Below are positions 42,651 through 52,272 of a DNA stretch of 64,000 nt, piece after piece. The position numbers were made by a program, and so were the translations under genes. The first letter of the stretch is position 1. Every line of letters starts with the position of its first letter. A model generated the notes under the pieces. The model was not told the DNA's origin. It saw only the letters and a list, made by a program, of their open reading frames with translations, and searched no databases. Source of the DNA: Rhodococcus spongiicola (lineage in GTDB: Bacteria; Actinomycetota; Actinomycetes; Mycobacteriales; Mycobacteriaceae). Where the stretch lies: NCBI RefSeq assembly GCF_004011835.1, contig NZ_RKLN01000002.1, positions 477,469-541,468 on the forward strand, written 5' to 3'.

Positions 42651-42698
42651 GAACACGTGCACTCGCCTCCTCCACGAGTGATGGGAAGGGCACAGTTT

Positions 42699-44183
42699 GT
42701 GAGGGCAGTGGATTGTAGTTGGACCGCCGTGCTGTCGGCCGCCGTAGTCACCGTGGGCCTGTCGGTGGCGACGGTGACTCCGGTGGGAGCGGAAGAGAGG
42801 CTGGTCGGCGGACCGTGCGGGCAGAGCGACGAGGGCAACGACGAGGGGAACGGCGCGGGTGACACAGCCAGCCCCGGTCGCTCAGGTGGTTTCGGTAGCT
42901 TGGCCGGTGTCGGTAGCTTGGCCGGTTTCGGTAGCGCGGGTAGTTCGGGTGGTTCCGGTAGCGGGGGTAGTTCGGGTGGTTCCGGTAGCGGGGGTAGCTC
43001 GGGTGGTTCCGGTAGCGGGGGTAGCTCGGGTGGTTCCGGCAGCGCCGGCGGTTCCGGCAGCACGGGAAGCTTGATCGGCGGCATCGGCAGTGCGGCGGGT
43101 TTGCTCGCGAATTCGCTTCCCTGGATTCGGGATTCGCCCGACGGCGTGTTGCCGGAGCTGAGAGGTAGCACCGAGGCGATCGAGATGGTCACCGGTCCGG
43201 GTAGTCCGAACGGGAGCATCGAGAAGTACGGTGTCGCGGGCACCGACCTCGGAATCATGTGGGACAACGGCCAAGGGCAGGTGCTGATGGCCTTCGGGGA
43301 CACCGTTGGCGATTGCGACGTACCTGGCACCCAGTGGCGCAGCAACGTCCTGTTCCGCAGCAACGACACCACGTTGAGCGATGGCATGCGAATCGACAGC
43401 TCGCCGCTCGCAGAGGCGCCCCCGAACTATTCCAAGCAGGTAATAGACGGCTTGCTCGAGGCTCAGCCGGGCAGCTACCCCGAGTACACCGTCATCCCGA
43501 CGTCTGGCGTGGCGGTGGACGGAGTCCAGTACGTTCGTTTCATGTCTGTGCGTTCGTGGGACGAACCCGGCGAATGGACGACCAACTACTCCGCGATCGC
43601 TCGTTCATACGACAACGGCGAGACGTGGGACGTAGTGCGGTCGACGGTCCGGCTCACCCTCGACTCAGCGATTTCGACGGGCAATGTGGATTGGCAGATG
43701 AGTGCGTTCGTGCCAGACCGCGGAGACGGGTTCGTCTACGAATTCGGTACCGCCTCAGGGCGTTCCGGGCCTGCGCGGCTGGCCCGTGTGCCGGCAACCT
43801 CAGCGGACTTGGAAGACCCGAACAAGTACGAGTACTGGACGGAAACTGGCTGGTCACCAGACATGGAGGACGCGGAACCGGTGATCAAGGCCCCGGTCAG
43901 CGAGCTGTCGGTGCAGTGGAACGACTACCTCGGCAAGTACATAGCGATGTACACGGACGGGAGCGACCTCGAGATCCGTCAGGCCACGAATCCGTGGGGC
44001 CCGTGGAGCAGTAGTCAGACGCTCATCAGTGCGGCCACGCTGCCGTCGCTGTATGGCGGGTTCATGCACCCATGGGCGACGGGTTCGGACCTGTACTTCG
44101 TACTGACGACGTGGGATCGGTACAACGTGATCTATGCGCGGACCGATCTGAGCGTGCTCGACAAGACGTGGCCGACTGGCTAG
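42699..44183 (+). CDS. Exported DUF4185 (GH183-like) protein, paralogue A
   Basis: A 494-residue exported protein. Signal peptide: MRAVDCSW, hydrophobic core LSAAVVTVGLSVATV, cleavage near PVGAEE. A Gly/Ser linker follows (residues about 60-130), with GSLAG units and four copies of a nine-residue GSxGSSGGS repeat. The C-terminal domain (about 140-494) is DUF4185: GTDLGIMWDNGQGQVLMAFGDT, VQYVRFMSVRSW, NYSAIARSYDNGETWDVV, VQWNDYLGKYIAMYTD and LYGGFMHPWATG, a repeated-blade propeller pattern. DUF4185 proteins have been identified as endo-D-arabinanases (GH183) acting on mycobacterial arabinan; activity here is inferred. I prefer GTG at 42699 because GGGAAGGG precedes it and it gives a normal signal peptide; ATG at 42681 is the alternative. 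First of three tandem copies. Confidence 0.85.
   Translation: MRAVDCSWTAVLSAAVVTVGLSVATVTPVGAEERLVGGPCGQSDEGNDEGNGAGDTASPGRSGGFGSLAGVGSLAGFGSAGSSGGSGSGGSSGGSGSGGSSGGSGSGGSSGGSGSAGGSGSTGSLIGGIGSAAGLLANSLPWIRDSPDGVLPELRGSTEAIEMVTGPGSPNGSIEKYGVAGTDLGIMWDNGQGQVLMAFGDTVGDCDVPGTQWRSNVLFRSNDTTLSDGMRIDSSPLAEAPPNYSKQVIDGLLEAQPGSYPEYTVIPTSGVAVDGVQYVRFMSVRSWDEPGEWTTNYSAIARSYDNGETWDVVRSTVRLTLDSAISTGNVDWQMSAFVPDRGDGFVYEFGTASGRSGPARLARVPATSADLEDPNKYEYWTETGWSPDMEDAEPVIKAPVSELSVQWNDYLGKYIAMYTDGSDLEIRQATNPWGPWSSSQTLISAATLPSLYGGFMHPWATGSDLYFVLTTWDRYNVIYARTDLSVLDKTWPTG
42930..43037 (+). repeat. Four tandem copies of a 27-base unit in DUF4185 paralogue A
   Basis: Units at 42930, 42957, 42984 and 43011 are nearly identical (GGTAGCG-GGGTAG-TCGGGTGGTTCC pattern) and encode GSxGSSGGS. 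They expand the linker of this paralogue alone; copies B and C have shorter, different linkers. Two 18-base GSLAG-coding units precede it. Confidence 0.9.
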
Positions 44184-44271
44184 TTCGACCGTCCCGACCC
44201 AGCGTAGACCGGTGAGCGGGAGCTCCTGCGTTTCGACAAGCCCAAAGAGTAATGGTTCGCACCTGCCCGTT

Positions 44272-44307
44272 GACCCGTGGCCCGCCCCCGACCGGGGGCC
44301 ACAGGTC
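44272..44307 (+). terminator. Hairpin after DUF4185 paralogue A
   Basis: GACC and GTGGCCC (44272-44283) face GGGCCAC and GGTC (44296-44307) with one mismatch. The position matches the longer perfect hairpins after paralogues B and C, but this copy has decayed. Confidence 0.6.
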
Positions 44308-44327
44308 GGGGAGAGTCCTCTGTTCCG

Positions 44328-44358
44328 TGCCCCTGTAGGAGTCGAACCCGCGACGTTG
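44328..44358 (-). other. tRNA 3'-end remnant 1 (T-arm and acceptor)
   Basis: On the minus strand this reads as a T-arm (loop TTCGA) running into an acceptor-like 3' end, similar to the 3' part of the tRNA-Arg at 52199-52272 with one base deleted. There is no anticodon or D arm, so it is not a functional tRNA. Equivalent pieces follow paralogues B and C. The rest of the 44184-44590 gap holds the hairpin and the conserved upstream block and no gene. Confidence 0.55.
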
Positions 44359-44502
44359 TCGGCATTGCGGGCGCAGGCGGTGAGCTCGACCGCATATAGC
44401 GAGGATCCTGATTACGACCGAGCTGGAGCGTCCTCCCGACAAGCAGGAAGAGAACGCGGCTCGACGGGAATCGCACTCTTAGCTTCACCGACATCGTCGG
44501 TC

Positions 44503-44542
44503 TTCCATGGTTTGCTCATTGATCGGCGCACACCTCGGGGAA
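44503..44542 (+). promoter_or_regulatory. Conserved upstream element 2 of the DUF4185 genes
   Basis: Second copy of the block described at 42611: the same 20 bases TTCCATGGTTTGCTCATTGR, then TCGGCG and ACCTCGGGGA. It lies 49-88 bases before the GTG of paralogue B. Confidence 0.6.
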
Positions 44543-44590
44543 GTTCCGTGCGAGTCGCCTCCCCCTCGAGCGATGGGAAGGACGCAGTCC

Positions 44591-46051
44591 GTGAGAGCAG
44601 TGAATCGTAGCTGGACCGCGGCACTGTCGGCTGCTGCGGTCACCGTGGGCTTGTCGGTGGCGATGGCGACTTCGGTCGAAGCGGATGGGCACGGGGGACC
44701 GTGTGGGCAGAGCGCTGGCGGTGGCTCGGGCAGCCCTGGCAGCTTGGGCAGCTTGGGCAGCACTGCCAACTCCGGCAGCACGGGAAGCCTGATCGGGAGC
44801 CTGGGCTCGGGCAGCTTGGGCAGCGCGACGGGTTCGCTCGCGAATTCGCTTCCGTGGATCATTGGTTCGCCCGACGGCGCGCTGCCGGTGCTGACCGGCC
44901 GCACCAAGGCGATCGAGATGGTGACCGGTCCGGGTAGTCCGAACAAGAGCATCGAGAAATACGGTGTCTCGGGTACCGACCTCGGCATCATGTGGGACAA
45001 CGGCCAAGGGCAGGTGCTGATGGCCTTCGGGGACACCTTCGGCGACTGCGACGACCCCCCCACCCAGTGGCGCAGCAACGTCTTGTTCCGGAGCAGCGAT
45101 GAGACACTGCGCGATGGCATGCGGATCGACAGTTCTCCGCTCGCACCTCCTCCACCCGAGAACTACTCCAAGCAGATCATCGACGGGCTGCTTGATCTTC
45201 CGCTAGGCAGCTTCGAGTTCACCGTCCTCCCGACGGCCGGCGTGGCGGTTTACGAAGAAGACCGGGACCGCTGGGTTCAGTACGTTCGTTTCATGTCGGT
45301 GCGCGAGTGGGGTGCCCCTGGCGAGTGGACGACTAACTACTCCGCGGTCGCCCGCTCGGACGACAACGGCGAAACGTGGGATGTGGTGGTGCCAACTGTC
45401 CGGGTCAATCTCGACCCGATGGATCCGGCGTTCCCAGACGGGATCGTCCCGCCGGCGTTTTCGTCGAACAACGGGAATTGGCAGATGAGTGCGTTCGTGC
45501 CAGGCGGCGACGGGTACGTCTACGAATTCGGAACTACCTCAGGGCGGAACGGGGCCGCGCGGTTGGCCCGCGTGCCGGCGAACCCGGCAGACCTGGAAGA
45601 CCTGAACGAATACCAGTATTGGACCGGAACCGTCTGGTCGCCGAACATCGCGGACGCGGAACCGGTGATCGAGGAACCGGTCAGCGAGCTGTCTGTGCAG
45701 TGGAACGACTACCTCGGCAAGTACATAGCGATGTACACGGACGTGGGTGGTCTGAAGATCCGTTTGGCCGACCATCCAGAGGGCCCGTGGAGCGGTACCC
45801 AGACGCTCATCAGTCCGGACACGTTGCCGTCGCTGTACGGCGGATTCATGCACCCGTGGGCTACTGGGCAGTACCTGTATTTCGTACTGACGACATGGGA
45901 TCGCTACAACGTGATCTACATGCGGACCGACCTGAGCAAGCTCGACAAGATGTCGCCCGCCGACCAGGTCGACCGTCCCGACCCCGCAAAGACCGGCGAG
46001 CAGAAGCTCCTCCGTTTCGACATTCCCGAGGACTTGCCGGAAGAGAAATGA
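44591..46051 (+). CDS. Exported DUF4185 (GH183-like) protein, paralogue B
   Basis: A 486-residue exported protein, the second tandem copy. Signal peptide MRAVNRSW then LSAAAVTVGLSVAMA, cleavage near VEADG. The linker (about residues 45-90) is made of GSLGSLGS, TGSLIGSLGS and GSLGSATGSLANSLPW units rather than the longer SSGGS repeats of paralogue A. The DUF4185 domain keeps GTDLGIMWDNGQGQVLMAFGD, NYSAVARSDDNGETWDVV, VQWNDYLGKYIAMYTD and LYGGFMHPWATG. Relative to A it has a loop insertion near NLDPMDPAFPDGIVPPAFSS, shared with C, so B and C are closer to each other. The C-terminus is a short acidic tail (DIPEDLPEEK). GTG start at 44591 with GGGAAGG upstream; ATG at 44573 is the alternative. 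Confidence 0.85.
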   Translation: MRAVNRSWTAALSAAAVTVGLSVAMATSVEADGHGGPCGQSAGGGSGSPGSLGSLGSTANSGSTGSLIGSLGSGSLGSATGSLANSLPWIIGSPDGALPVLTGRTKAIEMVTGPGSPNKSIEKYGVSGTDLGIMWDNGQGQVLMAFGDTFGDCDDPPTQWRSNVLFRSSDETLRDGMRIDSSPLAPPPPENYSKQIIDGLLDLPLGSFEFTVLPTAGVAVYEEDRDRWVQYVRFMSVREWGAPGEWTTNYSAVARSDDNGETWDVVVPTVRVNLDPMDPAFPDGIVPPAFSSNNGNWQMSAFVPGGDGYVYEFGTTSGRNGAARLARVPANPADLEDLNEYQYWTGTVWSPNIADAEPVIEEPVSELSVQWNDYLGKYIAMYTDVGGLKIRLADHPEGPWSGTQTLISPDTLPSLYGGFMHPWATGQYLYFVLTTWDRYNVIYMRTDLSKLDKMSPADQVDRPDPAKTGEQKLLRFDIPEDLPEEK

Positions 46052-46069
46052 TCCGCACGACCGGGTGAG

Positions 46070-46103
46070 CTGTGGCCCGTCCCTGTACGGGGACGGGCCA
46101 CAG
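46070..46103 (+). terminator. Hairpin terminator after DUF4185 paralogue B
   Basis: Perfect 14-pair stem (46070-46083 with 46090-46103) with a 6-base loop, 18 bases after the stop. The same stem sequence follows paralogue C. Confidence 0.85.
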
Positions 46104-46127
46104 TCGTCGAAGAGCCTCCTTGCTCGG

Positions 46128-46158
46128 TGTCCCCGACAGGACTGGAACCTGCGACCTT
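46128..46158 (-). other. tRNA 3'-end remnant 2 (T-arm and acceptor)
   Basis: Aligned without gaps, 27 of 31 bases match the 3' end of the tRNA-Arg at 52199-52229. It comprises the acceptor 3' strand and T-arm only. The remaining sequence up to 46351 has no gene or further tRNA similarity. Confidence 0.6.
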
Positions 46159-46351
46159 GTCGGCATTGCCGGCGCGTCAACGCTTCCTCCCGCGCTGGAT
46201 CGCATCAACCGCCGCGAGATCTCCTGGGCTCGATCAGCAACTTCGCCTTACCGGTTCGTCGTTGGCCGAGCCCGAGCAGCCTCCCGGTGAGAACGGGGGG
46301 AGAGCTCGGCCGGACGGAAATCACACCCGCGCAGCGGCAGCTGCTTTGACT

Positions 46352-46386
46352 TTCTGTGGTTTCCTCATTGGTCGGCGCATACCTCG
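46352..46386 (+). promoter_or_regulatory. Conserved upstream element 3 of the DUF4185 genes
   Basis: Third copy of the block at 42611, slightly diverged (TTCTGTGGTTTCCTCATTGG, then TCGGCG and ACCTCG). About 30 bases present in copies 1 and 2 between ACCTCG and the start region are deleted here. Confidence 0.6.
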
Positions 46387-46408
46387 AGCGATGGGAAGGA
46401 CGCAGTCT

Positions 46409-47902
46409 GTGAGGGCAGTGAAGCGTAGTTGGACCGCCGTACTGTCGGCTTCCGCGGTCACCGTGGGCCTGTCGGTGGCGATGGCGACTCCGGCCGGTGC
46501 GGTCGGGGGACCGTGCGGGCAGAGCGGTGGCGGTAGCCTGGGCAGCTCTGGCAGTAGCGGTAGCTCCGGCAGCACGGGAACCCTGATCGGGAGCCTGGGC
46601 TCGGGCAGCCTGGGCAGTGCGACGGGTTCGCTCGCGAATTCGCTTCCGTGGATCATCGGTTCTCCCGACGGCGCGCTGCCGGTGCTGACCGGCCGCACCA
46701 AGGCGATCGAGATGGTCACCGGTCCGGGTAGTCCGAACGAGAGCATCGAGAAGTACAGTGTCTCGGGCACCGATCTCGGCATCATGTGGGACAACGGCCA
46801 AGGACAGGTGCTGATGGCCTTCGGGGACACCGTCGGCGACTGCGATGAACCCGGCACCCAGTGGCGCAGCAACGCCCTGTTCCGGAGCAGCGACACTACG
46901 CTGAGCGATGGCATGCGGATCGACAGCTCGCCGCTCGCCCCGCCGCCCGCTGTGAACTTCTCCAAGCAGGTCATCGACGGCCTGCTCAACCTTCCGCTGG
47001 GCAGCCTCGAATTCACCGTCATCCCGACGGCCGGAGTCGAGGTGGACGGGGTCCAGTACGTTCGCTTCATGTCGGTACGCTCGTGGGGCGCCCCCGGCGA
47101 GTGGATGACGAACTACTCCGCGATCGCCCGCTCGGACGACAATGGCGATACGTGGGATGTGGTGGTGCCGACCGTCCGGGTCAATCTGGATCCGATGGAT
47201 CCGGAGTTCCCGGACGGAATTGTCCCGCCAGCGTTCTCGTCACACAACGAGAATTGGCAGATGAGTGCGTTCGTGCCGGACCGCGGCGACGGGTTCGTCT
47301 ACGAATTCGGCACCCCCTCAGGGCGTTCCGGCTCCGCGCGGTTGGCCCGGGTGCCGGCGACCTTGGACGCCATGGAAGACCCGACCAAATACGAGTACTG
47401 GACTGGAACCGACTGGTCCTCGACCATCGCGGACGCTGAACCTGTGATCAAGGCGCCAGTCAGCGAGCTGTCGGTGCAATGGAACGACTACCTCGGCAAG
47501 TACATTGCGATGTACACGGACGTGGGTGGTCTGAAGATCCGTCAGGCCGACCATCCGTGGGGCCCGTGGAGCGGTACCGAGACGCTCATCAGTGCGATCA
47601 CACTACCGTCGCTGTACGGCGGATTCATGCACCCGTGGGCTACTGGACAGTACCTGTATTTCGTACTGACGACATGGGATCGGTACAACGTGATCTACAT
47701 GCGGACTGATCTGAGCCGGGTCGACAGGATGAAGTCAGCGGAGCAGGTCGACCGCCCCGACCCCGCGCAGACCGGCGAGCAGAAGCTCCTCCGTTTCGAC
47801 ATGCCCGAGGACTTGCCGGAAACCGAGGACTCGCCGGAAACCGAGGACCTGCCGGAAACAGAGGACTTGCCGGAAACCGAGGACTTGCCGGAAGAGGAAT
47901 GA
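46409..47902 (+). CDS. Exported DUF4185 (GH183-like) protein, paralogue C
   Basis: A 497-residue exported protein, the third tandem copy. Signal peptide MRAVKRSW then LSASAVTVGLSVAMA, cleavage near PAGAVG. The short linker has GGSLGSSGSSGSSGS, TLIGSLGS and GSLGSATGSLANSLPW units. The DUF4185 domain keeps GTDLGIMWDNGQGQVLMAFGDT, NYSAIARSDDNGDTWDVV, VQWNDYLGKYIAMYTD and LYGGFMHPWATG. It differs from A and B by a strongly acidic C-terminal tail of four PETED(L/S) repeats ending in EEE. The frame is open to 46127, but GTG at 46409 has GGGAAGG upstream and gives the same signal peptide as its sisters; ATG at 46391 is the alternative. Catalysis on D-arabinan is inferred from family. Confidence 0.85.
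   Translation: MRAVKRSWTAVLSASAVTVGLSVAMATPAGAVGGPCGQSGGGSLGSSGSSGSSGSTGTLIGSLGSGSLGSATGSLANSLPWIIGSPDGALPVLTGRTKAIEMVTGPGSPNESIEKYSVSGTDLGIMWDNGQGQVLMAFGDTVGDCDEPGTQWRSNALFRSSDTTLSDGMRIDSSPLAPPPAVNFSKQVIDGLLNLPLGSLEFTVIPTAGVEVDGVQYVRFMSVRSWGAPGEWMTNYSAIARSDDNGDTWDVVVPTVRVNLDPMDPEFPDGIVPPAFSSHNENWQMSAFVPDRGDGFVYEFGTPSGRSGSARLARVPATLDAMEDPTKYEYWTGTDWSSTIADAEPVIKAPVSELSVQWNDYLGKYIAMYTDVGGLKIRQADHPWGPWSGTETLISAITLPSLYGGFMHPWATGQYLYFVLTTWDRYNVIYMRTDLSRVDRMKSAEQVDRPDPAQTGEQKLLRFDMPEDLPETEDSPETEDLPETEDLPETEDLPEEE
47813..47884 (+). repeat. Four tandem copies of an 18-base unit in DUF4185 paralogue C
   Basis: Units at 47813, 47831, 47849 and 47867 follow TTGCCGGAAACCGAGGAC with one or two changes, and a partial fifth copy runs to the stop. 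They encode the acidic tail. Confidence 0.9.
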
Positions 47903-47920
47903 TTCGCGCGACCGGGTGAC

Positions 47921-47954
47921 CTGTGGCCCGTCCCTGCACAGGGACGGGCCACAG
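47921..47954 (+). terminator. Hairpin terminator after DUF4185 paralogue C
   Basis: Perfect 15-pair stem (47921-47935 with 47940-47954) with a 4-base loop, 18 bases after the stop, nearly the same sequence as that after paralogue B. Confidence 0.85.
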
Positions 47955-47978
47955 TCGTCGAAGTGTCTCCCTACTCGG

Positions 47979-48009
47979 TGTCCTCCACAGGACTCGAACC
48001 TGCGATCTT
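47979..48009 (-). other. tRNA 3'-end remnant 3 (T-arm and acceptor)
   Basis: Aligned without gaps, 25 of 31 bases match the 3' end of the tRNA-Arg at 52199-52229, including an unbroken 16-base core GCAGGTTCGAGTCCTG on the minus strand. No anticodon arm. The rest of 47903-48173 has no gene. Confidence 0.6.
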
Positions 48010-48173
48010 GCCGGCGCAGGCGGTGGGCTCGGCGGCGCACACAGGATCCCGACTGTGTCAGTGCTGCGCCTTCCAGCACCTGCGTGGTGATCCCGGCGGA
48101 AGCGTCCTCGAAACCGCCGGGTCAGAGTCCACTCTTGGGTGGAGTGCCGCGTTCTTCCGGTGGAGCGCGTTGG

Positions 48174-49289
48174 TCAGGACGACGGTGCCAAAGAGCCTAG
48201 GCTACCGAGTGATCCGGCCGACGGTGCCAAAGAGCCTAGGCTGCCGAGCGATCCGGTCGACGGCGTTGGCTCGATCTCGATCACCGACACCGAGTCGCCG
48301 AAGCGGTTGGTGACGTAGGCGCGGCTGCCGTCGGGTGTGATTGCTATCCCGGTTGGCCCTGCGCCGACGTTGATGGGGGCTCCGGTGGCGAGGTTGGTGG
48401 CGGTGTCGATCGCCCATACCGCGTCGAAATCGTTGTTGGTGACGTAGGCGCGGCTGCCGTCGGGCGTGAATGCCACTCCGACCGGATACCCGCCGACGTT
48501 GATCGGAAATGCGGTGACGAGTTTGGTGGCGGTGTCGATCACGGAAACCGTGTCGTATTCGATGTTGGTGACGTAGGCGCGGCTGCCGTCAGGAGTGATC
48601 GCTACCGCTGCCGGCCCGTCGCCAATGTTGACTGTGTCGGTGACGGTGTTGGTGGCGGTGTCGATCACCACCACTCTTTCATCGTTGGCGACATAGGCGT
48701 CACCGTCGGGGGTGATCGCAATCCCGTAAGGCCCGTCGCCGACGTCGATCGGGTCTCCGGTGGCGAGGTTGGTCTTGGTGTCGATCACCGACACCGTGCC
48801 GCCGTCGTCGTTGGTGACGTAGACGTGTTCACCGTCAGGAGTGATCGCCACACCCCACGGTCCGCCGTCGGCGTCGATCGGGAGTCCGGAGACTTGGTTG
48901 GTGCGGGTGTCGATCACCGACACCGTGTTGTCCCATTTGTTGGCGACGTAGGCGTAGTTGCCGTTGGGGGTGATCGCCACACCGTACGGCCCGTCACCGA
49001 CGTCGACGGTGCTGACGATGGTGTTGTCTGCGGTATCGATTACCGACACAGTGTCGTCGTCCATGTTGGTGACGTACGCGTGGGTGCCGTCGGGGGTGAT
49101 CGCCACCCCGCGCGGTCCCTCGCCGACGGGGACGGAGCTGGTGACAGTGTCGGCGTGCGCGGCCGGTCCGGTAGTGAGCATCAGGCCAGCCGTCAGGGCT
49201 ACCGCCAGCCCGGCCGTACGTCGTCGGGCACGTGATCCGGCAAAGGGGGTATTGCCACGATCAGGAGGGGCAACATCGGTGTGTGGCAT
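48174..49289 (-). CDS. Exported seven-bladed YVTN beta-propeller protein with GSLGS tail
   Basis: A 371-residue exported protein. The signal peptide has SRARRR, a hydrophobic core and cleavage near AAHADT. Seven propeller blades follow, each with VAITPDGxxAYVTN and VSVIDTxTN elements, as in the YVTN/surface-layer-protein family; such propellers bind proteins or small ligands and a few are lactonases, but no catalytic residues can be assigned. The last 30 residues are two copies of GSLGSLGSLAPS, coded by a 39-base direct repeat. ATG at 49289 is preferred; a start 22 codons upstream adds an unlikely proline/arginine-rich stretch. It is convergent with the DUF4185 genes. The tail resembles their linkers. 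Confidence 0.85.
   Translation of the reverse strand: MPHTDVAPPDRGNTPFAGSRARRRTAGLAVALTAGLMLTTGPAAHADTVTSSVPVGEGPRGVAITPDGTHAYVTNMDDDTVSVIDTADNTIVSTVDVGDGPYGVAITPNGNYAYVANKWDNTVSVIDTRTNQVSGLPIDADGGPWGVAITPDGEHVYVTNDDGGTVSVIDTKTNLATGDPIDVGDGPYGIAITPDGDAYVANDERVVVIDTATNTVTDTVNIGDGPAAVAITPDGSRAYVTNIEYDTVSVIDTATKLVTAFPINVGGYPVGVAFTPDGSRAYVTNNDFDAVWAIDTATNLATGAPINVGAGPTGIAITPDGSRAYVTNRFGDSVSVIEIEPTPSTGSLGSLGSLAPSAGSLGSLGSLAPSS
48181..48258 (-). repeat. Two 39-base direct repeats coding the GSLGSLGSLAPS tail
   Basis: Bases 48181-48219 and 48220-48258 differ at only a few positions. They form the 3' end of the propeller gene. Confidence 0.9.
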
Positions 49290-49571
49290 CGTGGCCGGAC
49301 TCCTCGGGCTAACGGGCCTACGGGGCAGTGAGTGGTGTTGCCGGGGGTAGTGCACACGGGACCAAGGAGATTGGGCCGCGTGGTCTCGTCATGCAGTCGG
49401 ACTATACGGGACACATTCCGGCAATGCGGATATTTGTCCGGAATCGAAGTTGCGATGGAGAACGCTTCGGTGGGTCGTCCCGTTGATCTGCAGAAAGGCG
49501 TCGCAGCCAAGGCTCACCTGGAGCCGCGTTGCGCCGCATGCCAACACGAACGAACCGCGGCCCGAACATGC
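49290..49571. other. Non-coding gap upstream of the propeller gene
   Basis: About 280 bases containing the promoter side of the propeller gene. Short open frames on both strands have no recognisable protein features. Confidence 0.4.
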
Positions 49572-49606
49572 TTCTGGCCCGACACCCTGATGGTGCCGGG
49601 CCAGAA
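49572..49606 (-). terminator. Hairpin terminator 1 of the small exported protein genes
   Basis: TTCTGGCCCG (49572-49581) is inverted at 49597-49606; a second CACC/GGTG stem lies inside. It begins 8 bases past the stop of the gene at 49615 on the minus strand. Very similar hairpins follow the two sister genes. Confidence 0.8.
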
Positions 49607-49614
49607 AGGGGTGG

Positions 49615-50124
49615 TCAGGAAATGCCGAAGCTGCCGTATTCGAGGCTGCCGAGGCTGCCGTACTCGAGGCTCGCGATGCCGCCGTACATGAGGCTGCCGA
49701 CACTTCCAGAGGCGGTGCTGCCGAGGCTACCTAGGCTGCCGGAGGTGCTGTCAGCGGTGAACGCCAATGGTTCGTCCGTTTCCCCTGTCCCCCAAGTCTC
49801 GTCAGTCGATTGGCCGACACATGACCAGCTGAGGTGATAGTCGCCATCGATGAATACCGTCGTGATGACCCAGTTGCGGTTGGGATTGATGGACCAATGC
49901 GGGGACGCGTTCGTGATGTCGGGGTCTGCGTCGTTCGTTGCCACCCAGTTGCAGGTGATCATCTCCGGGCTGTTATTGGCGATGGAGACTTCAACGAAGT
50001 TTCCTCTGGCGTCGACAGACAGGGTGACGTCTTCGGGCTCGGCGTTGGCCGGCGCGGCGAACGCGACGGCCAGGAGCGGGGCGGCCAAGGCTGCGGCGGC
50101 AGCGGCACGTACTGACTTGATCAA
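49615..50124 (-). CDS. Small exported two-cysteine protein, paralogue 1, with GSLGS tail
   Basis: A 169-residue exported protein. The signal peptide MIKSVRAAAAAALAAPLLAV is cleaved near APANAEP. The mature domain (about 85 residues) is beta-rich, with DVTLSVDARGNFVEVSIANNS, ITCNWVA and LSWSCVG; the two Cys/Trp motifs and a closing WGTxxxxEPLxFTA are shared by all three paralogues and suggest a disulfide-linked beta-sandwich. After it comes a GSLGSLGS, GSVGSL, YGSLGSLEYGS tail. The start is TTG at 50124: it is the only start giving a signal peptide, and the same TTG is conserved in both paralogues. GAGAAAGAG lies upstream. Function unknown. Confidence 0.75.
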   Translation of the reverse strand: MIKSVRAAAAAALAAPLLAVAFAAPANAEPEDVTLSVDARGNFVEVSIANNSPEMITCNWVATNDADPDITNASPHWSINPNRNWVITTVFIDGDYHLSWSCVGQSTDETWGTGETDEPLAFTADSTSGSLGSLGSTASGSVGSLMYGGIASLEYGSLGSLEYGSFGIS

Positions 50125-50190
50125 CGGGTTCTCTTTCTCTTGTTCTCCGTATGCGGACCCGCTTACGGGGTGTGGTGCACCGGTGGTACC

Positions 50191-50243
50191 TCGAAGGAAC
50201 GCGAGTGAATCCCCCCCGGCGTGAAGGAATCTAACAGTGCCCC
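50191..50243 (-). promoter_or_regulatory. Conserved promoter-region block 1 of the small exported protein genes
   Basis: About 50 bases, starting 67 bases upstream of the TTG start, recur at 51191-51243 and 51993-52036. On the minus strand the block reads GGGCACTGTTAGATTCCTTC, then a G-rich run and CTCGCGTTC. TTAGAT could be a -10 element, giving a leader of about 100 bases. Conservation outside coding sequence across the three paralogues indicates shared regulation or recent duplication. Confidence 0.5.
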
Positions 50244-50618
50244 ACCAGACGAGGTCGAGGAATCCTCATGCGTAGTGTCTTGATCGAAGCCCGTGGGTCT
50301 GGATGTCGCCGCTCGGCCTGCTGGGCGCCCTGCGGAGCCACGCGGCAGCTCGAGAAGGGTCCATCTCCTTCGGTCTCAGCAATCCGTACGACTACGAAAA
50401 ATGTTGTTCCAGTGACTGATTCGCTATCCATTCCCATGTGCTAGCCCGTGCTGCCGACGCGAGAGTGGACACCGGTTCCTCCTTCATGGTGATGTCCGGA
50501 CTCAGTTCCTCCGGGGATACTCGAGCCGCTGCAGCCTCTGAGTGTGCGTGGCACGCCGCGTTGGCCGTACGTCGCTACGCCCGTGCGAGTAGCACGCCGG
50601 CGCCTGGCCTGAACATGC
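50244..50618. other. Non-coding gap between small exported protein genes 1 and 2
   Basis: About 375 bases with no gene that I can support. Open frames on both strands are arginine-rich shadows. It lies between the promoter block of paralogue 1 and the terminator of paralogue 2. Confidence 0.4.
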
Positions 50619-50655
50619 TTCATGGCCCGACACGCTGATGGTGCCGGGCCATGAA
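50619..50655 (-). terminator. Hairpin terminator 2 of the small exported protein genes
   Basis: An 11-pair perfect stem (50619-50629 with 50645-50655), starting 7 bases past the stop at 50663 on the minus strand. The sequence is a variant of the hairpin at 49572. Confidence 0.8.
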
Positions 50656-50662
50656 GGGACGA

Positions 50663-51124
50663 TCAGGAACTGCCGAAGCTGCCGGACGTGCTGCCGAGGC
50701 TGCCGAAACCCGTGCTGTCGTCGTCGGTGCTGCCCGGGGCGGTGAACACGAGGGGCTCGGCTGTCTTTCGCCCGGTCTCCCACGTCGTCCCCCACGTCTC
50801 GCCGGCGAGTGGGGTAGTGCAGTTCCAGTTGACGGTATAGGTGCCGTCGGCGACGGTCACCGGGTAGCGATACTCCTCGTCGGATTCGACGTACTGAAAG
50901 AAGGCCGCGTAGGTCTCGCCGAAGATCCGGTCACTCTCTGCCATCCATTTGCAGGTGATCGTCCTCTGGCTGTCGTTGATGATGATGACTTCTACGTCGT
51001 TGCCGTGGACCTCGACGGATAGGGTGACGTCTTTGACTCCGGCGTTGGCCGGCGCGGCGAACATGGTGGCCAGGAGTGGGGTGGCCAAGGCTGCGGTGGC
51101 AACGGCACGTACTGACTTGATCAA
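50663..51124 (-). CDS. Small exported two-cysteine protein, paralogue 2, with GSLGS tail
   Basis: A 153-residue exported protein, sister of those at 49615 and 51462. Signal peptide MIKSVRAVATAALATPLLAT, cleavage near APANAGV. The mature domain keeps DVTLSVEVHGNDVEVIIINDS, ITCKWMAE, VNWNCTT and WGTTWETG-EPLVFTA. The tail is short: FGSLGSTSGSFGSS. The start is TTG at 51124; the frame is open for 66 more codons upstream, but those run through the conserved promoter block and show no signal sequence. GAGAAAGAG lies upstream of the TTG. Function unknown. Confidence 0.75.
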   Translation of the reverse strand: MIKSVRAVATAALATPLLATMFAAPANAGVKDVTLSVEVHGNDVEVIIINDSQRTITCKWMAESDRIFGETYAAFFQYVESDEEYRYPVTVADGTYTVNWNCTTPLAGETWGTTWETGRKTAEPLVFTAPGSTDDDSTGFGSLGSTSGSFGSS

Positions 51125-51190
51125 GGAGTTCTCTTTCTCTCGTTCTCCGTATGAAGGCCCGCGTGCGGGAAGTGGTGTACCGGCGGCACC

Positions 51191-51243
51191 CCGAAAGAAC
51201 GCGAGTGAGTCCCTCCCGGCGGGAAGGAATCTAACAGTGCCCA
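51191..51243 (-). promoter_or_regulatory. Conserved promoter-region block 2 of the small exported protein genes
   Basis: Second copy of the block at 50191, again about 67 bases upstream of the TTG start. The TTAGATTCCTTC element and the CTCGCGTTC element are both kept. The following 51244-51419 shows nothing recognisable. Confidence 0.5.
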
Positions 51244-51419
51244 CTGAAAAAGTTCGGGGAATCGTCGTCCGAAACGTCTTGATCGAACCCCACATCGCAT
51301 TCAACGGCTGAGGGCGGCACACGCCGGGGCGCCGAACTGCATGGCGAACGACTGCACGAGTGTGCCATGTGCTGGGCGGACCGAAACCGAGACGAACGAA
51401 CGGGGGCCTGAAGATGCTT

Positions 51420-51450
51420 CTGGCCCGACACCATGATGGTGCCGGGCCAG
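51420..51450 (-). terminator. Hairpin terminator 3 of the small exported protein genes
   Basis: CTGGCCCG (51420-51427) is inverted at 51443-51450, with an inner CACC/GGTG stem. It begins 11 bases past the stop at 51462 on the minus strand and matches terminators 1 and 2. Confidence 0.8.
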
Positions 51451-51461
51451 GGAAGCGGTGG

Positions 51462-51944
51462 TTAGGAGAAGCCTAGGCCGCCTTCGAGGCTGCCGGGGTG
51501 GAAGATCCCAAGGAAGCCGTCGCCTTCAAGGTCGATGCTCCCGAATGGGCCAACCGGGGTGGTGAACCGGATTGGCTCTGCAGTCTTGTCGTCGTGAAGG
51601 AAGTCCTCCGTCCCCCAAACCTCGGGACGGTCCCAGGACATGCACCCCCAACTGGTTTCGTAGCTGCCGCCGCCGAGGTACCGCTGGGTGCGATACTCGT
51701 CGCCCGGGAGTATGTAACCAGTGATGATTGAACCGGGCGTGCGGCCGTCGTCAGTCACGACCTGCCACTCGCAGCTGATCAGGTCCCGAGAGTTGTTGGT
51801 GACGGCAACTTCAACGAAGTTACCCCTGACGTAGACCGAGAGGGTGACGTCTTCGGGTGCGGCGTTGGCCGGCGCAGCGAATGCGACGGCGACGAGCGGG
51901 GCGGCCAAGGCTGCTGCTGCTGCGGCGCGTACACACTTGATCAA
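51462..51944 (-). CDS. Small exported two-cysteine protein, paralogue 3
   Basis: A 160-residue exported protein. Signal peptide MIKCVRAAAAAALAAPLVAV, cleavage near APANAAP. The mature domain keeps DVTLSVYVRGNFVEVAVTNNS, ISCEWQV, TSWGCMS and VWGTEDF-EPIRFTT. Its tail (FGSIDLEGDGFLGI, PGSLEGGLGFS) is glycine-rich but lacks the regular GSLGS repeats of its sisters, so it is either the ancestral or a degraded form. Start TTG at 51944 with GAGGGAAGGG about 6 bases upstream, the best ribosome site of the three. Function unknown. Confidence 0.75.
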   Translation of the reverse strand: MIKCVRAAAAAALAAPLVAVAFAAPANAAPEDVTLSVYVRGNFVEVAVTNNSRDLISCEWQVVTDDGRTPGSIITGYILPGDEYRTQRYLGGGSYETSWGCMSWDRPEVWGTEDFLHDDKTAEPIRFTTPVGPFGSIDLEGDGFLGIFHPGSLEGGLGFS

Positions 51945-52190: not shown

Positions 52191-52198
52191 GGGATAAG

Positions 52199-52272
52199 TG
52201 CCCCCGGCAGGACTCGAACCTGCGACCTAGAGATTAGAAGGCTCTTGCTCTATCCAGCTGAGCTACGGAGGC
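52199..52272 (-). tRNA. tRNA-Arg (anticodon UCU)
   Basis: On the minus strand the acceptor GCCTCCG (52272-52266) pairs with CGGGGGC (52206-52200, one G-U pair). The anticodon loop CTTCTAA gives UCU, reading AGA/AGG. T-arm GTTCGAGTC. The discriminator is A and CCA is not encoded. Length 74. It marks the right border of the accessory region. The 165 bases between it and the next gene hold nothing recognisable beyond promoters. Confidence 0.95.

Follow-up and report, generated by a model that had tools for sequence, protein, structure and literature searches.

Why should exported proteins with unrelated folds, encoded side by side, share a short segment built of GSLGS-type units? The question is raised by a 64,000-nucleotide stretch of the Rhodococcus spongiicola genome (contig NZ_RKLN01000002.1, positions 477,469 to 541,468; hereafter the window, G000:C12:477469-541468 in our numbering of the 3.97-Mb genome), which encodes a cluster of three DUF4185 proteins, a YVTN-type propeller and three small two-cysteine proteins, flanked by an alpha/beta-hydrolase-like frame and a tRNA-Arg gene. 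A preliminary description quoted GSLGS-type segments from these proteins, all of which are present in the window where it placed them, and treated them as a trait of this island that might serve as an anchoring tag for the mycolate outer membrane, as a self-associating segment or as a secretion tag. We find the observation confirmed and widened and the first interpretation partly supported. The segment is spread over the genome and the genus, is linked to export, lies near an end of its carriers and is under selection at the protein level, and homologues of the mycoloyltransferase MytC are encoded in the same genome. The explanation on which we would bet first, ahead of a plain spacer, though tentatively, is that GSL segments are flexible acceptor stretches for O-mycoloylation, which would tether exported proteins to the mycomembrane.

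A scan of the R. spongiicola genome for (GSL)2G returned 24 matches, 23 reading exactly GSLGSLG and one GSLGTLG. They sit in 17 open frames, none of them cytoplasmic looking: 13 of the frames are intact and encode exported proteins; the other 4 represent fragments of propeller-like genes or their frame-broken ends. The carriers are propellers, two-cysteine-type proteins, the second DUF4185 copy of the window, an M23 peptidase and a Tat-exported cholesterol-oxidase-type flavoprotein. The broken or truncated frames with propeller-like ends and GSL tails (L003, L014, L022 and L023) are either decayed copies or assembly errors. The suspected tie to export also holds in a background sample of the same genome (400 kb taken as 20 pieces of 20 kb, with 339 genes by a simple gene caller), where 1 of 64 predicted exported proteins contains GSLGS and none of the 36 membrane or 239 other proteins does. 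At least 12 Pfam families carry the segment in this genome and in the match stretches of nine named relatives, namely, DUF4185, YVTN propellers, FAD/cholesterol oxidase, M23, tyrosine phosphatase, Big_3_5/Big_6 Ig repeats, neocarzinostatin-like proteins, NlpC/P60, GH25, arylsulfotransferase, the beta-lactamase fold and alpha/beta hydrolases. Of the 20 named genomes in which the pattern matched at all, nine supplied these stretches, which omit one Skermania match out of two and an inexact one from Prescottella subtropica; 12 of the 30 carrier proteins in the follow-up scan had no Pfam match at 0.001. The sharing of one segment by different domain families thus extends well beyond the cluster in which it was noticed, and the genome-wide carriers, together with the matches in relatives, rule out an island-specific acquisition.

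Two places dominate, directly behind a Sec or Tat signal and at the extreme C terminus. Among 59 rows, which take in the R. spongiicola genome, some duplicates and some fragments, 51 have the segment within 45 residues of the predicted signal end or of the C terminus. The other eight consist of five N-terminal segments behind signals that the heuristic missed (one gene appearing twice), one duplicate, L209, where the segment lies in a DUF4185 stalk 105 residues behind the predicted signal, and L195, where it precedes a C-terminal helix. The signal-peptide heuristic was positive in 40 of the 59 rows and missed clear Tat signals, which were judged by eye.

Is the repetition a product of DNA slippage, or is the protein sequence itself kept? 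When the third position was opened to L, V, I, M or F, 21 of 26 matches in the R. spongiicola genome read GSLGSLG. In 17 of these 21 the neighboring units are two different 9-mers, and their serine codons are divided between 22 AGY and 20 TCN. Since the units differ in DNA and both serine codon boxes are used, selection acts on the protein sequence, and codon slippage, as the preliminary description had allowed, is ruled out as a general cause. Slippage did shape the leucine-free array of DUF4185 copy 1. The order of the residues also departs from chance: across 14 genomes of the genus, the permuted (GLS)n matched 6 times, never in R. spongiicola, and (GSL)n gave 142 matches in 11 genomes of the genus versus 46 for the backwards control.

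What is kept is nevertheless a composition of glycine, serine and scattered leucine and no strict motif; length, register and even leucine vary. Thr, Ala and Ser also fill the X of GSXGS in exported proteins of the background sample, so that leucine is not the sole filler. Orthologues of the cholesterol-oxidase-type protein differ in length and register and read GSSGSAG in R. erythropolis and GSSGA in R. phenolicus, in a comparison in which the protein was found in 9 of 30 genomes, 7 of 16 loci had no anchored upstream stretch and the L223 stretch was unusable. Three consecutive propellers (L124 13312-16098, G000:C24) have near-identical Phe/Ala-rich tails of the GSLCFGAGS[FL] type with no GSLGS unit; a further propeller beside them (L124:10858-12006) ends in a leucine-type tail. 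Leucine is thus conserved in part only. The segment itself is retained among orthologues, GSLG[ST] being present in 8 of 8 DUF4185 stalks from the Prescottella clade. For M23, the best matches outside this clade look like other paralogues and have no bearing on conservation.

The C-terminal tails carry a second regularity. Twenty-six of 37 end in serine and 20 of 37 in Gly-Ser, as opposed to 35 and 2 of 338 background genes, respectively. Both exceed the expectation from tail composition (binomial 5e-10 and 6e-8, with paralogy, which inflates the tail-end counts, left uncorrected). The small exported proteins met in the search for relatives of the leaderless frames (see below) finish in Ser, Ala or Thr. 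The last serine is invariant in 7 of 7 aligned two-cysteine proteins despite their varying tail lengths, and the three Phe/Ala-rich propeller tails that lack GSLGS also finish in serine.

The segment is unevenly spread over the family. We calculated the excess of the pattern over its control per genome in 151 genomes of the family; it is 8.7 in the genus of R. spongiicola (g1), 4.0 in g13 (4 genomes), 2.0 in g24 (3 genomes) and g47 (1 genome) and at most 1.0 in the other 26 genera. Among the matches listed, exact GSLGSLG accounts for 2 of 7 in g24, 2 of 5 in g3, 1 of 4 in g20 and 1 of 4 in g50. In 24 genomes from other families of the order (G037-G060), a shorter pattern gave 65 matches versus 145 for the control and lay above the control in 4 of the 24. 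Within a set of 29 named genomes, exact GSLGSLG is present in 14 of 19 from Rhodococcus, Prescottella, Dietzia, Tomitella, Speluncibacter, Antrihabitans and Skermania and in 0 of 4 from Mycobacterium, 0 of 4 from Corynebacterium and 0 of 2 from Hoyosella/Lolliginicoccus. The DUF4185 stalks, for which 79 of 80 surveyed loci had an anchor, follow the same lines. Leaving aside Mycobacterium and Hoyosella/Lolliginicoccus, 52 of 67 loci have GSL; in these two groups the counts are 0 of 8 and 0 of 4, respectively.

What could such a segment do at the surface of a mycolate bacterium? In O-mycoloylation, known for PorA, PorH, ProtX and PorB/C and performed by MytC/Cmt1, serine, and sometimes threonine, is modified among small residues in flexible Gly/Ala/Ser-rich stretches, about half of the modified proteins have several sites, and the site descriptions in the excerpts of PMC11066868 available here give no strict consensus. 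The composition of the GSL segment agrees with this tendency, and the published sites offer no strict consensus to which it could be matched. In ProtX and PorH the sites, Ser37 and Ser56, respectively, stand one place before the end of the chain, and the NFSS end of PorH recurs in PorB (PMC5310785). In both cases, the setting is a mycolate bacterium with MytC homologues in which unrelated exported or envelope families are concerned. The known sites differ from the GSL segment in lacking a consensus and, in Cmt1, in not being of the GSL type.

The order of events that we regard as most likely begins with Sec or Tat export of the protein. Its exposed Gly/Ser/Leu stretch, which follows the signal peptide ahead of the first domain or forms a C-terminal tail, would then enter the active site of a MytC/Cmt1-type mycoloyltransferase, one or more serines would be esterified with mycolic acid from trehalose monomycolate, and the modified protein would be held at the mycomembrane. 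The GSL segment would thus be a short, flexible, composition-defined tag on exported envelope proteins of many families in this clade. In the case of PorB and PorC, loss of MytC reduces the proteins and leads to their release into the medium (PMC5310785). The DUF4185 proteins give this proposal a concrete sense, as GH183 enzymes of this family cleave the D-arabinan of mycobacterial arabinogalactan or lipoarabinomannan, with two catalytic Asp residues named (PMC10115798). All three window copies cover PF13810 over nearly the whole profile (E values of 9e-108 to 5e-111), and they differ from eight mycobacterial homologues, whose stalks are Pro/Ala-rich, in the GSL stalk that precedes the domain. 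Because DUF4185 cuts D-arabinan, a mycolate tether would hold the enzyme at the right layer, beside the arabinan under the mycolate layer.

The enzyme that this would take has a candidate in the R. spongiicola genome. The frame at G000:C1:169877-170686 scores 303 bits with Cmt1 (chains 8qhf/4h18) versus 161 with PS1 and 110 with Ag85A, and it keeps the residues aligned with the Cmt1 catalytic triad of S189, E310 and H341 (PMC11927696); two further close MytC paralogues have 61% and 58% identity. Nocardia, Gordonia and Rhodococcus have reported MytC orthologues, some of them inactive in Corynebacterium glutamicum (PMC5310785). The picture of co-occurrence with mycolate genes is mixed. All 14 named genomes that contain exact GSLGSLG show a MytC-like match of at least 310 bits; a close MytC is missing from the four Mycobacterium genomes (best E values of 8e-52 to 6e-29). 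In the excerpts of PMC5310785 consulted here, no identified mycobacterial enzyme is shown with the characteristic loop, and mycoloylation in Mycobacterium is doubted, a point that its authors leave to testing. All 25 remaining named genomes have MytC-like matches, weakest in the four from Corynebacterium (E values of 1e-58 to 5e-79), and several of them lack the tandem.

Several results weigh against O-mycoloylation. Eleven of these 25 MytC-positive genomes, the four from Corynebacterium and seven others, lack the tandem, and MytC is therefore not sufficient. The seven include Hoyosella and Lolliginicoccus, which have MytC-like genes of 456 and 435 bits, yet no exact GSLGSLG and no GSL in their four DUF4185 stalks, and five rhodococcal or Antrihabitans genomes. 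The exact tandem is missing in every tested genome of Corynebacterium, the very genus in which the modification was proven. The MytC scores are graded (1e-58 in one Corynebacterium, 8e-52 in one Mycobacterium), so that the contrast is not a clean one, and as the species are related, the contrast with Mycobacterium may represent a single evolutionary event. Among the matches listed, single exact GSLGSLG occurrences are found in genera with little or no excess, including g50 and g20, and in genomes with weak MytC matches, such as G181. The mapped Cmt1 sites S281, S284 and S296, counted on the printed Cmt1 chain, lie in EWESVDSPRFEGLNQQVQS, a non-GSL context. Leucine, as seen above, is not strictly kept, and GS-rich stretches also serve as ordinary spacers.

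Two lines were tried and set aside. Published sites cannot serve as the source of the motif, the Cmt1 sites being unlike GSL. Loss of mycolate in Hoyosella had been considered as a natural experiment, and it was dropped because the earlier report of the absence of mycolic acids was mistaken, their presence now being reported in the text seen of PMC5936774; the genus is accordingly counted above among the points that disfavor O-mycoloylation.

The most serious rival, possible if somewhat doubtful, is a plain flexible spacer or tail that holds domains off the wall, or a weakly selected low-complexity end that drifts in length and in which GC-rich codon usage lets leucine be tolerated. The variation of orthologues in length, register and composition is what such a spacer predicts, as are the growth of some arrays by DNA repeats (DUF4185 copy 1), the use of Ala, Thr, Ser and Phe as filler in the same genome and the Pro/Ala-rich composition of the mycobacterial DUF4185 stalks. 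It accounts for all but three features: the C-terminal tails join nothing; the GSL order is kept, GLS being nearly absent and V, I or F seldom replacing L in tandem units; and tails finish on serine above the expectation from composition.

Other roles fare worse. Gly-Ser-Leu triplets place glycine at every third position, and such chains might associate as in polyglycine II or collagen, or else attach to a polymer of the wall, so that tagged proteins are brought together; a tag common to many different proteins of one envelope would suit this. However, the segments mostly comprise two to four triplets without proline, and a stable helix bundle needs longer triplet runs and proline, so that self-association or wall binding appears unlikely. 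O-mannosylation is common in the exposed, Ser-rich linkers of proteins that actinobacteria export, and the segment might be an acceptor of this kind, but known glycosylated linkers are rich in Pro, Ala and Thr, unlike the regular Leu/Gly context seen here, and we consider O-glycosylation improbable. The secretion or sortase-type sorting tag is the least credible, since despite its C-terminal position in many proteins, the segment also occurs N terminally, a Sec or Tat signal is already present on most carriers, and a sortase- or PEP-CTERM-type end (a membrane helix followed by basic residues) was found by eye in the last 30 residues of none of the 37 tails, only L178 and L195, outside that set, ending in this way. 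Of the three roles first proposed, anchoring is hence the best, with the reservation that its likely route, an O-mycoloylation acceptor, is an already described modification.

The cluster itself appears older than its host. The nearest named genome is that of Rhodococcus xishaensis (DUF4185 77% identical, MytC-like protein 97%), which marks the host, by sequence, as a relative of R. xishaensis/Prescottella. The R. xishaensis gene order matches that of the window, with a hydrolase-like frame, two DUF4185 frames, three two-cysteine frames and tRNA-Arg, and the shared order points to a cluster that predates the host species. A propeller was not found in the stretch of the R. xishaensis cluster that was inspected, and the propeller and the third DUF4185 gene are likely additions to an older cluster.

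The three exported DUF4185 (GH183-type) proteins are encoded in tandem on the forward strand. Copy 1 (42681..44183; PF13810, 5e-111) has a stalk at 42885-43100 in which FGSLAGVGSLAGFGS is followed by the leucine-free 27-bp tandem array, coding GSSGGSGSG (4.9 copies, 92% matches). The stalk of copy 2 (44573..46051; 9e-108), at 44729-44839, reads GSPGSLGSLGSTANSGSTGSLIGSLGSGSLGSATGSL and contains GSLGSLGS and TGSLIGSLGS; a structure prediction for this protein from a three-row alignment reached a mean pLDDT of 39, too poor to inform. Copy 3 (46391..47902; 2e-109) has GGGSLGSSGS...TGTLIGSLGS at 46526-46633 and at its C terminus an 18-bp tandem repeat coding PETEDL units (47805-47893), of which copy 2 has one short unit and copy 1 none. 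Behind each copy lies a decayed piece of a tRNA-Arg 3' half (44330-44354, 46127-46157 and 47978-48008), with 84 to 90% identity over 25 to 31 bases to tRNA-Arg(tct) at 52198-52272. In P. subtropica (L026), an intact tRNA-Arg stands directly behind DUF4185. These decayed copies and the intact P. subtropica tRNA suggest that a unit of DUF4185 and tRNA-Arg was duplicated in tandem.

The remaining carriers of the cluster are on the reverse strand and have C-terminal tails. The exported YVTN-type beta-propeller (48174..49355; PF10282 and PF21783, YVTN/lactonase type) has a tail at 48177-48257, TGSLGSLGSLAPSAGSLGSLGSLAPSS, which ends in two GSLGSLGSLAPS units. The three small exported two-cysteine proteins, which align with one another and have no Pfam match at an E value of 0.01, are A (49615..50124), whose tail (49618-49746) contains GSLGSLGS and closes with GSFGIS; B (50663..51124), whose tail (50666-50713) contains FGSLGSTSGSFGSS and closes with SGSFGSS; and C (51462..51944), with a divergent tail (51465-51554) of only PFGSIDLEG...GSLEGGLGFS, closing with GLGFS. 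A two-cysteine protein of the R. xishaensis cluster (L025:4723-5427) has a long expanded (GSLEGILGTLDA)n tail that ends in LGFS.

A different kind of carrier is formed by small frames lacking a signal peptide (L191/L259, L260, L205 and L206). P. subtropica has a 51-aa leaderless GSL frame with AAAGGAAA upstream and an inverted repeat downstream, and Speluncibacter has frames of 45 and 36 aa with similar upstream leaders; the leaders of all three are Shine-Dalgarno-like, and the one of 36 aa falls within long open frames on the opposite strand. Full-length relatives of the P. subtropica peptide occur in 2 of 14 genomes of the genus, counting its own, the second copy being 90% identical. Several weaker matches come from other species, where they form the tails of small proteins with ends similar to SFGSSYGSxxDSP; a clear signal peptide is present in at least two of these proteins. 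These frames are candidate genes and possibly encode new small mycomembrane proteins. Their likeness to PorA, PorH and ProtX lies in small size and the lack of a signal peptide only, and no homology is claimed.

The GSL segment bears on how proteins are targeted to and retained in the mycolate outer membrane. In the portions of the cited literature consulted here, the mapped O-mycoloylation sites come from C. glutamicum only and without a consensus, and the titles and opening lines of abstracts listed by our searches of open-licence papers contain no description of a tag such as the GSL segment. A bolder and more doubtful proposal sees in the segment a portable address for the mycomembrane, used by Prescottella and related mycolate genera. 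A composition-defined Ser-acceptor tail, often Gly-Ser-COOH, would turn any Sec- or Tat-exported fold into an O-mycoloylated outer-membrane lipoprotein; this would be a general mode of anchoring outside Corynebacterium with a sequence signature. With the recurrent, movable GSL segment, candidates can be predicted from sequence in rhodococci, dietzias and tomitellas, and MytC homologues can be tested on a substrate that is at hand. As a plain spacer, the segment would still represent a clade-wide end-of-protein composition rule for exported proteins.

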